Assembly (NCBI RefSeq): GCF_028389875.1
Contig: NC_084668.1
Span: 22,125,493 to 22,189,492 of the forward strand
Length of the DNA stretch: 64,000 nt
From: Rhea pennata
Lineage: Eukaryota; Chordata; Aves; Rheiformes; Rheidae
Direction of reading: 5' to 3'
The translations under genes and the position numbers were made by a program. Below are positions 36,840 through 48,443 of the stretch, piece by piece (the stretch's first letter is position 1; every line of letters begins with the position of its first letter). Under the pieces are notes generated by a model. The model saw only the letters and a program-made list of their open reading frames with translations. It was not told the origin of the DNA and ran no database searches.

Positions 36840-37950
36840 GCACGCTCGCTGCACCGGTTTGGCCCTTGCCAGCTACTGCTCTCCCAAACAGCGCCAAGGC
36901 ACTGTCTGGGACATGAAAACGGCCGTCAGCCCACGCCAGGGGGCTGCATGAATGCTGCTGGGATGGGGCAGAGGGAAGGGGAAGAGTTCTGCCTTACCGA
37001 GACAAGCCCCTTGCTCTCAGGGGCAGGACACGGATCCCCTCGCTCAACTCACCAGCACTCACGCAGCCCCTGGGAGCGCGGGACCTCCCTGCAGCTGTGG
37101 CACCGCGTCAGGGAGGAGCCCGCTGCGGGCTTCCAGCCTGGCCGCCGGCAGATGAAGAGCACACCCAGCGCTTAGAAGGACACAGTTCAGCCCGGCGGAG
37201 CCCGCCCCATGCCAGCCGCTTCCGCGGAGGCCTCAGAGGCCGCTGAGCGGCCGCGTGCAGACCGGGGCGGCCGTTGGGGGCGGCCGTTGGGGGCGGCCGT
37301 TGGGGCGGCCGTTGGGGGCGGCGCCTCGCCTCGGCCCGTGTGGCGAGCGCTGTCCCCGCCAGCCGGCCGGGCCGCGCCTGCCCGAAACGCGCGTTTCCCT
37401 GCAGGGAGTCCGTACCTGGCGAGAGGCTGTAGCTCTTGCCCCGCCTCGCTCCTCCATCTCTGCTCCTGCTCTGAGCTCCGCTGTAAGTTTTTCTTGGCCC
37501 TGGTTTGCGCCTGTTGCGCGCAGGCAGCGGGTGTCGGGCGGCAGCCCCGCGGGGCTCTGCGAGGACTGTGTCTCTCTAGGCCTGCCTGCCGTGGGGACTC
37601 TCGGAAGCCCCCTGGCCTCTGCTGGGTTACCGGGCCTCGCAGGTGAGCCCCTTTGGCTGCGACGCGACGAGTGGCTAGGTTCGCTTTTCCAAACCCCCCC
37701 CCTTTTGGCCTGCGCAAAAGAGAGTCCTAGAGGAAGGAGCTGGTTATTGCCGTCGGGAAAGGAGGAAGCCTGCCCCGCCGCTGGCCGGGTTCACGGGTGC
37801 GGGAGGCTGCAGCTACGCAAGTGGGGTGCGCTTGCAGGGACCTCGCCTCTGCTGGTGCTGTGTCTTGCCCAAAAGACTGCTCTGCCAAAGCCTGCTGCTC
37901 TCAGAAGCCGGGCTCAGGATGCCTGAAAAGTGGGCTTAGAAATTTAAAAG
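36840..37950 (+). promoter_or_regulatory. Orphan CpG island with plus-strand splice donors
   Basis: A GC- and CpG-rich block lies between the CFAP210 duplicate and the 3' end of CFAP210. On the plus strand it offers two strong splice donors: GCT|GTAAGT near 37483 and CTCGCAG|GTGAGC with the exon end near 37641. On the minus strand there is a moderate donor, CCAG|GTACGG, near 37410. No open frame in it resembles a known protein. The likeliest reading is a promoter and first exon of a noncoding or lineage-specific transcript. The strand is inferred from donor strength only. Confidence 0.55.
37261..37322. repeat. GGCGGCCGTTGGGG tandem repeat
   Basis: Four consecutive units of a 13-14 base motif (GGCGGCCGTTGGGG), one unit a base shorter, inside the orphan CpG island. 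Confidence 0.9.
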
Positions 37951-42200: not shown

Positions 42201-45200
42201 GAAATCTCGGCCTTGGGTATCAACTTAAAGAACTATTCCCTATTCTATCTCTTCATCTTTCTTTTTAAGAAAGAAGAGAAGGGATTCTCAGTACCTCCAC
42301 TTACTTCTGCTTCCCTGTTCAAGCATGCATGAAGGGGAGATAGTCTGAGGAAAGAGAAGGGGGATGGAGCACTGAACACAGCCACTTTTCCAACATGTTA
42401 TATGAAAACACTGATAGGCAGAGGGATAAATGAAGTATGGGCACTGAGGAACACACCCTGTTCAAACATGAGAGGAATGGTAGATGCAGAGTGAGGACAC
42501 CAAGGAGTGCTCTTTCACCCAGCAGAAAAATGGGGTGTAGTACCACAATGCTACTACACAGTGTTGTGACGATTATTCCTCACTTCCATTCACTCACAAG
42601 TTGAGAGGAATGGGAATATGCAGTCCCCACCAACACACACAACTGTGTTGCTCCTGGCCCACCTCATCCAAACCTTCCCCAGTCTAAGAGCTCGATCCCA
42701 TTACTATCTGAAGAGGGCTGTTCTAGAGTTTCATGTGAAAAATACCATCTTTCACATACTAGTCAAAACCGTTGTGAGGCATTGCTGCTTCACCTGTGGC
42801 AAGGTACCTTTGAAGGTAAAGAGGGCAGCAAGTCTGATCAATTTCCTAACCAGGAAAGCAGTCAGCAAGCCTCCGGTTGCTCTCAGGCCTCCTTATTTAG
42901 CTACATCAAAGCAACTTTCACCCCCACAGCCAAAGCAAAACCAGCACCAAACTCTTTGCTTTCCTATTACTTACATGATGCAGCCTCCGGCGTTCAAGCT
43001 TTTCCGCCTGCTCCTTCTCCTTTTCTCTCTGAATTTCCAGTTGGTACAACCGAGTCAATCTCTGAATTTCTTCTCCTTCTCTTTTGTCTTCTAGCTTGGC
43101 CAGTTCTGCCTGACGCTTGTGCTCCTTTATTCTGAAACAGAGAAAGGAGTTGGAGAAATGGGCTAGGGACTCTGTAAAGCAGGGAAAAGACAAGGATTCT
43201 GCATGTCTAGAGGTACCTTAGCACCAAAGAATCTGTACTTTGAAGTGGAGGTGGGTAGACTGTCAGAGGTCAAAAAGAGCATCATCGTTTTGAAAGGTAG
43301 CCCCTCATCCTCTGGCCAGAAATTAGTTACGCATCATGCACAATCAGATTGCAGTCGACTGGTAACACGTTACTTTTTATCTGAGTGACCCATCAACACC
43401 ACTCTATTCATGACATTCTAGCCTGTCTGCAGTAGTCTGAGCAACGAGGATTTCCCCAGTGAGTCCCATGATACCTGTGTTTTTCCTCATGCACATGCAG
43501 GCCACAGCTTAAACTGGTAGTATTGTGTAGTAAGTTCTGTGTACTAAGTGTATACATTGGACCTGGAATATGTGGGACTGGACTTTGAGCCCTTCCTCTC
43601 CATGCAGGAATTTGATTTCATCTGTCAGAGTTCTTGGGCCAGTCCTGTAAACACCACTGGGGAGCCCTCTATGAGGTTTCTGGAAGAGCTGGGAGAAGGA
43701 ATGGAGATAGCAGAGATGCATTCTCTTGGCATCAGGTTATGGCCAAATGGAAAATCTGGTTTAACCTTTTACTTTTCTGGAAACAAAACTGAGTTAATAT
43801 GAATTTTCAATAACTATTTCTGAATAGTGAGCTGACAACAAATTGACACTGCCTGCTAGAGGCCATTTTACATGCAGCCTGTTGGCAACCACAAGACACT
43901 GCATATCACAGCTTTTCCCTTTTGTGCAAGATCTTTTTTAGAACTCTAGAACTTTCTTCTAAAACATTGCATTTGTGGTGCAAACAATTAATAGGTTTCT
44001 CTAAAAGCTTTATAGAACATATTTAGAGAAGAGAGTTTAAATAAAGAAAAAAATAGAATTGCTATTGATGAAATATTACTTACTGTTCCAGCTGAGCTCT
44101 GCTAAGTGCCTTTTGTTTCATATAATGTTCATGTGCCTTCTCCTGTTCTCTGAGAATAGCTTTTTTACGTTCATGTTCCAATTCTTCTTCCTTCTTTTTA
44201 TTAACATCTTGCTTTAACTTTTTAAATTCAACTTGAGCATCTCTTTCTTTAAGGACCTCAGTAAGTAGAAGTGCACTCTACAAGAGAACAATTTAAATAA
44301 TTTACATGTTCAGAAGTGTCTAAAGAAAATCAGTAAAATTTAAAATTAAAAATAGTAAGTTGTCAACAGACATGTAACCCTTTCACTCTTTCAGTCTTAT
44401 AGTATTGATAGGTGCTTGCTTGATCGATAGCCTCTTTCCGTCTTGCTGCTTGGAATTGTGCTTCTTCCAAATCAATTAACCTTCTCTCTTCCTCTTCCCT
44501 TTCTGCACATAGTTTTTTGGCTTTAAGTTTCCTTTGTGCCAGGCCCTACAACGCAGATATGTATATATATATATATTTTTTTTTGCAGAGCATGCTTTAA
44601 AACTGTAGATAAATATATAAAAGTCTGAAGATGATATACTAAATTACTTTTTTATTTCTGAATTTTAGGTTTAATTCAACAATTAAACTATTTAAAAGGA
44701 ATTTAGTTAAAGTACTTAGTAAAAAGCAAAATTTAAACAAAGCAAGTACAGCTAGAGTATTGCTATGAGTGTTTTTTTGCATGTATGAAGATGACTGCCC
44801 CAGTTTATCCTGTACTTACCATAATGGTATTGGGCCAGTCCTTTACAGCTGCCTTGGAGCGTAAGTGCATTTCTTTCCGTTCTTTCCTCTCAGCAAGGAT
44901 ACATGCTGCTTCTCTAGTTGTACTGCCAAGATTGCCCTGAATCCTTTCCCATTCGGCTTTTGGCAATACAATAACCTGATGAAGATCTACATCATTTGGA
45001 AGAAAATATCCATCTAGAATATTATTTTCTGCCAAACCATTTAATGCTATGCATAGGGAAGAAAAGATATTGAGGTTACTTGATATCAGAAAATCCTAAA
45101 TTTAAATCTGTATCAAGATGTTCCTGCACAGTAAGATACTAAGTTATAAGAGTTACTTTCCCTATCCCAGTACCCTAGACCTAAGACAGAGCATCTACAT

Positions 45201-46634
45201 CTGCACAGTAAGCTTGGTTGGGTAGGTACTTGGGCTGCACCACACCGTTGTCTGGGTGAATTAATTATTTGCACGTCCCCTTAACTGTTTGTAGGTATGT
45301 ATATATGTAGCTTGTGATAGCTAACACTTTTGAGACAGTATTTGGGTGTAATTCTGAGGATAGGAGGGAGCAGGGAGTATTCCCAAAAGGGAAAAGGGGA
45401 TATTGGTGAAGCTATTCTGCTGAGGGTGGAGGGAGTCAGCCAGAGGGGACAGCAGTATGGCCACAGGCTGTGCCTTACCACCCTTGTCCTGGGCTCTTCG
45501 TATTTATTAGAATATGGGTGGTGCACACGTGTATGTGTGAGTGTAGGTTTTCTAGGTGATTGTTAAGTTTTGCAAAATACCCTTCAAATTGATCATCAGT
45601 ACTTTCAAATGAAATTGAATTTTGATCAAAAAAAGAGATTCTTTTAGAAATTCATGTTCATCTGATTTTCAGAAGATTAACTTATCTAAAACATTAGGAA
45701 GCTTCACTTGCAGTGGTACTTATGCTGAAATCAAAATCTGGCTGAAGATCTAGTTATTAATCTATTTGTCTTATTTGGTGACTAGGCCCGATCTTCTGCC
45801 TCTTCCCAGATAAAGGCAGCCTTGCCAAAAGTTACCTGGCAGCGACTAATACACAGTTACATTATGTAGATTCTGAATCACCAGAAACCTCCTTGTTTTC
45901 TAGCTTCCAGGTTTTTTATGATAGTGCAATTCCACTGCGTTCAGGTTAGTTCTTTCTAGTTAAATTTCAGGCAGGAGCAGGCATGACAGTTCTTGCCTGC
46001 AGCGGGGGAGCCGGAGGGAGGTGGCGGGGGAGAGCCCAGCCAGGTGTTATTGCCCGGGTTGTGTTTGGGGTCCCCCTTGCTGCCGCTCCTAGCTGAGCCA
46101 CCCTGCACACGGCCACGGGGCGCCCGAAGGGCCCGGGCACCTCGTGTGCCGCTCCCGCGCGGTGCTCCGGTGCTGCACGGGCCCTTTCGCGCCGCCACCC
46201 GCCGCCGCGAGAGGCGGCCCCACTCACGGGCCAGCTCCCGCCGCCCGCCCCCCCCCCCCCCCCCCGGGACGGCCCCACTCACGGGCCAGCTCCCGCCGCC
46301 CCCCACCCCCACCCCCACCCGGGACGGCCCCACTCACGGGCCAGCTCCCGCCGCCCGCCCCCTCCCCCCCGGGGCGGCCCCACTCACGGGCCAGCTCCCG
46401 CCGCCCGCCCCCCCCCCCCCCGGGGCGGCCCCACTCACGGGCCAGCTCCCGCCGCCCCCCACCCCCACCCCCACCCGGGACGGCCCCACTCACGGGCCAG
46501 CTCCCGCCGCCCGCCCCCCCCCCCCCCGGGACGGCCCCACTCACGGGCCAGCTCCCGCCGCCCGCCCCGGGGCGGCCCCACTCACGGGCCAGCTCCCGCC
46601 GCCCGCGCGGGCGCTCGGGCTGAGCCGCCGCCAT
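39247..46634 (-). CDS. CFAP210: CFAP210 (CCDC173), ciliary microtubule inner protein, 9 coding exons
   Basis: Coiled-coil protein of the trichohyalin/plectin-homology type, known as a microtubule inner protein of motile-cilium doublets. Exons in transcript order: 46634-46586, 45046-44820, 44545-44372, 44277-44084, 43131-42975, 42149-42010, 41192-41000, 40471-40307, 39546-39247. Phases agree throughout. The CDS is 1,599 nt, 532 aa, against about 550 in mammals. Exon 1 gives MAAAQPERPRGRRELA; exon 2 has no early ATG, which supports that start. Recognisable stretches include PKAEWERIQ (exon 2), LIDLEEAQFQAARRKEAI (exon 3), ALLLTEVLKERDAQ (exon 4), KREGEEIQRLTRLYQ (exon 5) and GPSYQAQDIPGTQLPC (exon 9). 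Most of the chain is Glu/Lys/Arg-rich helix. The exon 3 donor is the weak GTCTGT. It shares a promoter with PHOSPHO2. Confidence 0.95.
39876..39945 (-). mobile_element. CR1 LINE 3'-end fragment
   Basis: The plus strand reads ATCATAGAATCACAGAATGG, then a GGTTGGAGGGGACCT-like segment. This is the reverse complement of the avian CR1 3' end, with its ATTCTRTG terminal repeats. It is a 5'-truncated fragment of about 70 bases, as is typical for CR1, in the last intron of CFAP210. It has no coding capacity. Confidence 0.85.
46215..46603 (-). repeat. Minisatellite of eight exon-1/splice-donor units (CFAP210)
   Basis: A 31-base core (minus strand GGCGGCGGGAGCTGGCCC|GTGAGTGGGGCCG, bar at the splice site) occurs eight times: plus positions 46215, 46270, 46325, 46375, 46426, 46481, 46532 and 46573, each 31 long. 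Periods are 55, 55, 50, 51, 55, 51 and 41. The unit nearest the ATG is the real end of exon 1 (donor after 46586); the other seven lie in intron 1, each with an intact GTGAGT. Spacers are pure C runs or CCACCCCCACCC types on plus, hence G-rich on the sense strand. The array is probably variable in copy number. Assembly error in such GC-rich DNA is possible. Confidence 0.93.
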
Positions 46635-46666
46635 AGCCCCAAGCCGCGGCGCTGTGTGTACGCGCC

Positions 46667-46679
46667 GTTGCCGGGCAAC
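46667..46679. promoter_or_regulatory. RFX X-box
   Basis: GTTGCC-G-GGCAAC is a perfect inverted-repeat X-box (GTNRCC N0-3 RGYAAC), 33 bases upstream of the CFAP210 ATG. RFX factors bind such sites at ciliary gene promoters, which fits CFAP210. Confidence 0.85.
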
Positions 46680-46692
46680 CGGGCGGCGCGGG

Positions 46693-46702
46693 GTCACGTG
46701 AC
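46693..46702. promoter_or_regulatory. GTCACGTGAC E-box palindrome
   Basis: A ten-base perfect palindrome around CACGTG. It fits USF or MiT/TFE (CLEAR-type) bHLH-zip factors, and sits between the X-box and the PHOSPHO2 exon. Confidence 0.6.
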
Positions 46703-46978
46703 GGGCCGGCCGCGAGGCGGTGGCGCTTGCACGAAGGGAAGCCGGAAGCGAAGGGCCGTTGAGGTGGGTCGGCCCGGAGCGCGCACCCCGCCCGGCCCGG
46801 CCCGGCCCTCTCTGCCGGCGGTGCTGTCCGCTTCGCCTGGCTTTTCGGTCCGTGGCGGCCGCCCGGCCCAGCCCCTCCGTCGTCCCCCGCGGGGGGCCGC
46901 TTTGCTTTTCCCCTCCAGGTTGGGCTGTCGGGCTCGCGGTGGTCGCGTTGCTGCCCCGCGCTCGGGGGCGGCGGGTGC

Positions 46979-47008
46979 GCCCGGCCCGGCCCGGCCCGGC
47001 CCGGCCCG
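46979..47008. repeat. (CGGCC)n tract
   Basis: About five perfect CCCGG/CGGCC pentamers in the CpG island downstream of the likely first PHOSPHO2 donor. A shorter run of the same motif is at about 46788-46806. Confidence 0.85.
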
Positions 47009-47717
47009 TGCTCTCCGGCGCGGCCTGCGGGCGTGGGCAGCGCCCGAGGGTGGAGGGAGGGCCGTGCTCGGGGCTGCGGCAGCAGATGTGCTTGAGGAGA
47101 ATGGCGTTAAATACCGGAGGAAGGCGCGGGGGGCTTCTGCCCCAAGGGGTTTCCACAGTCCGGAGATTTTTTTCCTCCGCGATGCAGCAATGGCAGTGTT
47201 TGTTGTTGATTGCTTGATTCAGTGTGTCCCATATTTATAAATAATTTGGCTTCAGCTGCTCAGTACTGTTTGCCTCTCTTTGGATGCAGAAAACTTTAAG
47301 CTGTTTGACAGAATCCCAGTTCTGTTGCACTGGCAAATGATTACGGAGAAACTGAAAATCGTTGATCAAACTAATAATGTATGAGGAAGGGAAGATTGAT
47401 TCTGCATCAGTAAATATTAATAACTACACAGTGTGCATCTAGATACATCTAGATTGTCTGTTTTAAATACAGTAAATGGGGCTAGAGTTAAAACTTTGAC
47501 CTTTACTTTTTTTTTTTTTTTTTAGCTTCAGCACAACTTTTTCCTACAGCTATAGTAGCTATAAATAGTTTACTGTGTTTAGATTTTGTCTTAACTCCTT
47601 ATTTCCTTGCAGAGTTATTTTTCTCCTGAGTACAAGATCAGGATAGGAATTCAGTACTTTTGCTTATATAAATATTTCTTTTTTTTTGTATGTGTTTTGA
47701 AAACTCTTCTGACAGCT

Positions 47718-48443
47718 ATGAAATTTCTGTTGGTTTTTGATTTTGACCATACGATCATAGATGAAAACAGTGATACCTGGATTGTGAAATGTGCTCCTGG
47801 GAAAAAGCTTCCTAATGAATTAAGAAACTCCTATCGACCAGGACACTGGACTGAATATATGGGTAAAGTCTTTGCCTACTTGGGAGACAATGGCATCAAA
47901 GAAGATGAGATGAGAAGAACTATGACAACAATTCCATTCACTGCGGGGATGGTAGATCTTCTAGGCTTTATTGGCAAGAACAAAGAGTTCTTTGACTGCA
48001 TAATTATTTCAGATTCTAATACAGTATTTATTGACTGGATTTTAAAAGCTGCTGACTTTCATAAGGTGTTTGATGAAGTGTTTACAAACCCTGCAGCGTT
48101 TACTAGTACTGACTATCTTACTGTACAGAATTTCCACACTCACTATTGTGCAAGGTGCCCTAAAAACCTTTGTAAAAGGAAAGTATTAAAAGAATTTCTA
48201 GATAAACAATTGGAGCAAGGAGTAAGTTATACACAAATTGTGTATATAGGTGATGGTGGGAATGATCTATGCCCAGTAACTTTTTTGAAGAAGGATGATA
48301 TTGCTATGCCTAGGAAGGGATATACTTTAGAGAAGAAGATCTCTCAGCTCTCTCAAAATCTCAGTCCTGTAGAATGTTCTGTTCTGGTCTGGTCAACTGG
48401 TGGAGAAATAATGTCTTACTTGAAACTGCTTCTTAAGGAATAA
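47718..48443 (+). CDS. PHOSPHO2: PHOSPHO2, HAD-family pyridoxal phosphate phosphatase
   Basis: Cytosolic HAD-superfamily phosphatase of the PHOSPHO1/PHOSPHO2 type; the mammalian enzyme is reported to act on pyridoxal 5'-phosphate. 241 aa, the same as human, in a single coding exon. The nucleophile motif DFDHT is at residues 8-12 (D8 and D10), motif II SDS at 98-100, and the GDGGND metal-binding motif at 178-183. A Cys-rich CARCPKNLC segment is at 144-152. The ATG has G at -3. Upstream in-frame codons are preceded by acceptor-like CTTGCAG (about 47613) and CTGACAG (47715), so the mature exon starts at one of these and the frame above 47718 is not expected to be used. The 5' noncoding exon lies in the shared promoter with CFAP210. 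Confidence 0.97.
   Translation: MKFLLVFDFDHTIIDENSDTWIVKCAPGKKLPNELRNSYRPGHWTEYMGKVFAYLGDNGIKEDEMRRTMTTIPFTAGMVDLLGFIGKNKEFFDCIIISDSNTVFIDWILKAADFHKVFDEVFTNPAAFTSTDYLTVQNFHTHYCARCPKNLCKRKVLKEFLDKQLEQGVSYTQIVYIGDGGNDLCPVTFLKKDDIAMPRKGYTLEKKISQLSQNLSPVECSVLVWSTGGEIMSYLKLLLKE

Follow-up and report, generated by a model that had tools for sequence, protein, structure and literature searches.

The window analysed here, a 64,000-nucleotide stretch of the Rhea pennata genome, carries a minisatellite in which the end of an exon and its splice donor are repeated eight times in tandem, at the 3' end of exon 1 of a gene identified as CFAP210 by its matches to solved protein chains. The donor array is a real, well-formed feature of an already described kind, and is less usual in lying at a first exon and on a 44.5-Mb contig. 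It is probably a locally grown, GC-rich and quadruplex-prone minisatellite that began across the border of exon 1 and intron 1, with the donor nearest the ATG (donor 1) mainly used; most likely, donors 2-8 act as occasional decoys. No earlier report of the CFAP210 array was apparent in the part of the literature covered, as judged by titles, the beginnings of abstracts and a few passages.

The repeat array and its host gene

Counting on the minus strand gave eight copies of the block GGGCGGCGGGAGCTGGCCC|GTGAGTGGGGCCG with zero differences between them. The eight-fold repeat described in the initial annotation was thus confirmed, although its cassette length of 31 bases was not, since the invariant block comprises 32 bases (19 exonic and 13 intronic). 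The sequence CTGGCCC|GTGAGTGG, said to be conserved in every unit, was indeed present in all eight, with 8 matches on the minus strand of the window and 0 on the plus strand. The copy-to-copy spacings, beginning from the ATG side, are 41, 51, 55, 51, 50, 55 and 55. The array was also picked up by TRF, and its region has a GC content of 82-84% and 44 CpG. Other GC-rich tandem repeats are present in the window as well; one of them, in another GC-rich stretch, is a 13-base tandem repeat at 37264-37322, GGGGCGGCCGTTG, in 4.6 copies.

In 500 dinucleotide shuffles of positions 46634-46150, the commonest non-polyG 15-mer occurred at most three times and GTGAGT at most twice, against eight copies in the real array. 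A search of the genome (1.27 Gb, 180 contigs) for the 32-mer, tolerating at most 3 mismatches, returned 8 matches, all within the array and without a ninth copy at this threshold, and the reversed 32-mer used as a control had 0 genome-wide matches. The contig bearing the array (C6) is 44,487,990 bases long. DNA similar to the window was found at 29 places in the genome, namely the window itself and 28 places at 65-76% identity, and the one of these 28 that was inspected (L053) contained ordinary GC-rich tandem repeats.

When exon 1, ending at donor 1, was joined to exon 2, the product matched the solved CFAP210 chains 7rro_o (E=1.2e-19; residues 12-90 on 12-90, gapless), 7ung_o (residues 13-90 on 19-96) and 9cpc_2B (residues 12-90 on 17-95). 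The N-terminus made through donor 1 is equal in length to that of 7rro_o and 5-6 residues shorter than those of 7ung_o and 9cpc_2B, while exon 1 proper has little residue similarity to the solved chains. Eight gene pieces (the joined exons 1-2 and seven others), chosen by eye and joined with X, matched 7rro_o with E=1.8e-82 (residues 12-494 of 547). On these matches the host gene is CFAP210, with later exons readable. Of the eight donors, the one closest to the ATG is very likely ancestral, because the N-terminal length and the frame fit, and not because of residue similarity in exon 1; the earlier description of a coding exon of 49 nt ending at this unit agrees with our count and, by length and frame, with this likely ancestry. 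Together, the copy counts and the gene match support the earlier proposal that CFAP210 exon 1 ends in a minisatellite of tandem splice donors.

A PHOSPHO2-like phosphatase ORF at 47607-48443 is divergent from CFAP210, and beyond it lies a BTB-Kelch ORF, which we take from human gene order to be probably KLHL23. X-boxes are marks of ciliary promoters, and an X-box-like sequence lies between the two divergent genes (Table 1). Both strands have long open reading frames that cross the array, at 45993-47240 (plus strand, 415 codons) and 46224-47156 (minus strand, 310 codons); these are probably an effect of GC content and not genes.

Table 1. Features of the CFAP210 donor array and its surroundings (positions in the window; the first intron base of each donor is the higher coordinate of its row)
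Feature	Positions	Strand	Basis
X-box-like GTTGCCCGGCAAC, 32 bases upstream of the ATG, between divergent CFAP210 and PHOSPHO2-like genes	46667..46679	-	motif match
CFAP210 exon 1, coding part, 49 nt, ATG at 46634, ends at donor copy 1	46586..46634	-	frame; joined to exon 2 matches CFAP210 chains
Minisatellite, 8 exact copies of the 32-base exon-end/donor block	46215..46604	-	TRF, motif counts, genome search, shuffles
Seven G-rich spacers, each with a G-quadruplex motif; G-runs of 14 (46527), 14 (46421) and 18 (46265)	46237..46579	-	motif scan
Higher-order copy, 93-nt exact repeat at a 156-nt shift (about three units)	46270..46518	-	repeat comparison
Donor 1, GTGAGT, likely ancestral, likely the main donor	46580..46585	-	sequence, chain match
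Donor 2, +41, predicted stop early in exon 2	46539..46544	-	sequence
Donor 3, +92, predicted stop early in exon 2	46488..46493	-	sequence
Donor 4, +147, in frame, +49 residues	46433..46438	-	sequence
Donor 5, +198, in frame, +66 residues	46382..46387	-	sequence
Donor 6, +248, predicted stop early in exon 2	46332..46337	-	sequence
Donor 7, +303, in frame, +101 residues	46277..46282	-	sequence
Donor 8, +358, frame shifted, predicted stop eight codons after the junction	46222..46227	-	sequence
CFAP210 exon 2; acceptor ...CATAG before 45046; donor GTAAGT after ...ATTATG	44820..45046	-	sequence, match to CFAP210 chains

Frames and strength of the eight donors

All seven offsets of the later donors (41 to 358 nt) given in the initial annotation were exact on recount. 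Modulo 3 they leave 2, 2, 0, 0, 2, 0 and 1, so that the frame is kept at 147, 198 and 303, as had been stated. The in-frame addition of a peptide is likewise upheld, but its composition is not limited to Gly, Pro, Arg and Trp, as Val, Ser, Glu, Ala and Leu are also present. In the splicing predicted from donors 2, 3 and 6, exon 2 opens with CAT TAA in frame. Since the two nearest substitutes for donor 1 (+41 and +92) would thus be unproductive, the array would be a poor buffer against donor loss, a role that had been suggested for it. Without splicing, the first in-frame stop is a TGA that falls just within donor 8; so long an open frame says little at such a GC content.

Three of the seven later donors are in frame against a chance expectation of 7/3, and selection for isoforms by frame was rejected on this ground. 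Six of the seven, all except donor 2, are reached only by crossing one or more G-runs of at least 14. The frames of donors 3-8 therefore hang on these runs, and a single homopolymer slip or assembly error would change them; frames past the G-runs hold for the present assembly, and another individual may have different ones. With the in-frame count near chance and six donors placed beyond such runs, the suggested generation of N-terminal variants is unsupported. The functions proposed for the array are possible, although unsupported, and the frame evidence is mildly against them.

With the donor matrix used here, the donor sequence scored 5.94 of 12.61; of the 76 GT sites in 46700-45060, 6 scored above it. 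Its intron side, GTGAGT, is good, but it is preceded by CCC, and by this matrix its strength is mediocre.

Probable growth of the array and choice of donor

Growth of a quadruplex-prone minisatellite beginning over the border of exon 1 and intron 1 would have given each unit the last 19-21 exon bases together with the donor. Splicing would then fall mainly at donor 1, which is the copy closest to the cap and ends a very short first exon, and the G-rich spacers may serve as intronic G-run enhancers for a donor without exonic U1 pairing. Donors 2-8 would be used at a low level, most of the resulting transcripts carrying early stops, and mutation (slippage, unequal exchange) would maintain the array, rather than isoform selection. 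We favour this reading because the perfect tandem copies span the exon border, because the in-frame count is at chance level, and because G-quadruplex motifs occupy all seven spacers on the transcript-sense strand, on which the window has 11 non-overlapping matches in all, 7 of them here. It is further favoured by a BLAST of exon 1 against intron 1, which found seven copies, five at 42.1 bits and two at 38.2, against a maximum of 26.3 in 200 shuffled introns, and by a published class of the same anatomy (PMC12954441).

The units are uniform outside the G-rich spacer save for one C/T site, and the spacers fall into three classes with lengths of 41-55. The longest exact repeat in the array measures 93 nt, and its shift of about three units points to a multi-unit duplication. 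The perfection of the donors was considered as a sign of selection and rejected, the rest of the unit outside the spacer being equally uniform except at the one C/T site. When the units are folded singly, a GGCCC/GGGCC hairpin forms around every one of the eight donors, with the donor in its 7-nt loop (e.g. 46580-46592); of the 80 GTRAGT sites in the window, no others are flanked by a 5-pair stem. The hairpin stability z-scores ranged from -0.07 to +0.58 in seven of the eight units and reached -2.55 in unit 8, the 461-nt region folded with z=+0.57, and in a 471-nt fold computed without quadruplexes the hairpin was kept by donor 1 alone (0.98), the others being at or below 0.19. A special RNA structure as the function of the array was therefore dropped, since seven of the eight hairpins are no stabler than shuffles and the larger fold loses most of them.

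The favoured reading also draws on a second exon-border donor array in the same genome, on a 352-kb contig (L052, 1977-2193; G000:C59), which implies that repeat growth at exon borders recurs. The exon from which this array starts reads LPTIYVVTPTYA|R, and together with the next exon it matched Pfam Glyco_transf_43 (E=1.7e-33) and B3GAT3, beta-1,3-glucuronosyltransferase 3 (3cu0_A, E=9.4e-47). It contains five copies of the exon end and donor, and use of any of the four later donors would bring a stop directly behind the first copy.

Genome-wide, three-fold GTGAGT gave 339 matches against 481 for the reversed motif, while for three-fold CAGGTRAG there were 25 matches, spread by eye count over 8 places, and the reversed motif had 1 match. 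Permuted motif A gave 22 matches in 1 place (its reverse, 88 matches) and permuted motif B 71 matches in 16 places by eye (its reverse, 122); the match counts do not stand for separate places and are dominated by a few arrays. Genome-wide enrichment of donor arrays was dropped as a claim, the permuted and reversed controls being inconsistent, and donors are not implied to be favoured seeds because the permuted motifs gave fewer places once and more once. All 8 places with CAGGTRAG were inspected, and 1 of them starts at an identifiable exon; for the other 7 the judgement was made by eye from some 150 bases upstream. Two further repeats were recorded in these searches. One, at L046 (about 2017-2587; G000:C3:129302017-129302594), has 14 copies of CTCTCCGCAG|GTAAGG at a 40/50-base spacing, so that acceptor-like and donor-like sequences abut, and no exon was identified alongside. 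The other, at G000:C69:145778-146893, is a G-rich minisatellite whose units measure 46-50 bases; it surfaced as a match of a permuted-motif control.

Among near-equal donors, exon definition has been reported to prefer the upstream one, for internal exons only (PMC9225289), and the cap-binding complex to favour the cap-proximal donor (PMC4889658), and both rules point to donor 1. Binding of HNRNPH in flanking introns is reported to accompany enhanced exons (PMC13001508). For intron definition, by contrast, the rule is that the intron-proximal donor is chosen (PMC9225289); this would make donor 8 the favourite and goes against local growth with main use of donor 1. That reading is also weakened by the mediocre donor score and by the fact that the ancestral status of donor 1 rests on length and frame, similarity in exon 1 being low.

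A working splice-choice device, in which donors 4, 5 and 7 yield an extended CFAP210 N-terminus or the number of units tunes productive mRNA through decay, would accord with the identity of the eight donors, with the three that stay in frame and with the use of repeat donors reported for IFI6 (PMC4526556) and ABCA7 (PMC5954066). We nevertheless consider it unlikely, given that the in-frame count is at chance and that the frames depend on G-runs of 14-18. In ABCA7, moreover, retention of one unit is reported at about 2% of transcripts, constant with VNTR length, and it is the skipping of exon 19 that rises with that length (PMC5954066). The N-terminal helix of CFAP210 is described as packing onto the B-tubule wall and bending around CFAP52 (PMC10663601), and long N-terminal additions might not fit this packing. 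It is also rather improbable that the array forms a copy-number rheostat, with one productive cap-proximal donor set against seven identical, quadruplex-separated decoys that mostly lead to mRNA decay. If it did, the number of units would set the output of CFAP210, a doublet-microtubule inner protein, in ciliated cells and sperm.

Sequencing of long G-runs is error-prone, and the true number of units might be lower or the lengths of the G-runs wrong; we give little credence to such an assembly artefact, as the units are told apart by their spacers, unlike the outcome of a simple copying error, and a 390-base array is short relative to long reads. Still harder to credit is that the array acts as DNA, a G4- and CpG-rich element that affects transcription from a position past the CFAP210 start, in the CFAP210 direction, and upstream of the divergent PHOSPHO2-like gene: the 44 CpG, the G4 motifs of all seven spacers on the non-template strand and the divergent ORF would suit such an element, but with other GC-rich tandem repeats in the window the composition is not special.

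The array extends the growth of exon-edge repeats to a first exon, a large contig and a gene of motile cilia, and it offers a natural test of the choice made by the spliceosome among identical, near-evenly spaced donors in a first exon. Should the number of units differ from one individual to another, it would become a candidate explanation for differing CFAP210 output.

Comparison with known repeats

The CFAP210 array probably arose by an event of the kind described in birds as exon stuttering, in which a coding-exon edge and the splice site on it are tandemly copied into the adjoining intron in GC-rich sequence (PMC12954441). Here a piece of exon 1 from base 29 or 31 to base 49 recurs, donor included, in tandem within the adjoining intron 1, in seven copies besides the source, inside the published range of 1-44. 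The exon part copied, 19-21 nt, compares with 20-187 (median 36) in stuttering exons, and the 32-base core is perfect, whereas the copies in the published example are imperfect (PMC12954441). The best CFAP210 copies equal and do not exceed the shuffled-intron cut-off of 42.1 bits used in that study, where settings may differ, and this counts against the favoured reading. So does the location, since of the 236 stuttering introns reported in 115 chicken genes, 190 are on dot chromosomes and 46 off them, with 36 on macrochromosomes (PMC12954441), while the present array is on a 44.5-Mb contig; the association with dot chromosomes is strong, though not required. The main text of that study, whose gene list is in a supplement, makes no mention of CFAP210, CCDC173 or B3GAT3, and Hron et al. 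2026 noted in it that exon stuttering creates potential alternatively spliced transcripts (PMC12954441).

The CFAP210 repeat contains the donor of its own exon, repeated, as in donor-bearing minisatellites. An older example is reportedly the human minisatellite of IFI6 (6-16), said to have been found by Turri et al. in 1995 to provide several splice donors. The two repeats are alike in supplying several donors and differ in that IFI6 transcripts have been reported to use downstream units (PMC4526556), whereas use of the later donors is a prediction for CFAP210. The human VNTR of ABCA7 intron 18 similarly starts at the donor of the exon and has a donor in every unit, but its unit is of 25 bp, starts with the donor GT and is present in 12 to about 427 units; it follows an internal exon and its splicing effects have been measured (PMC5954066), whereas the CFAP210 array lies at a first exon. 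With CEB1 and CEB25 the array shares GC-rich tandem units containing G4 motifs; those two were assayed for instability in yeast, and G4-forming minisatellites such as CEB1 are reported to be unstable there (PMC2673046, PMC3486850).
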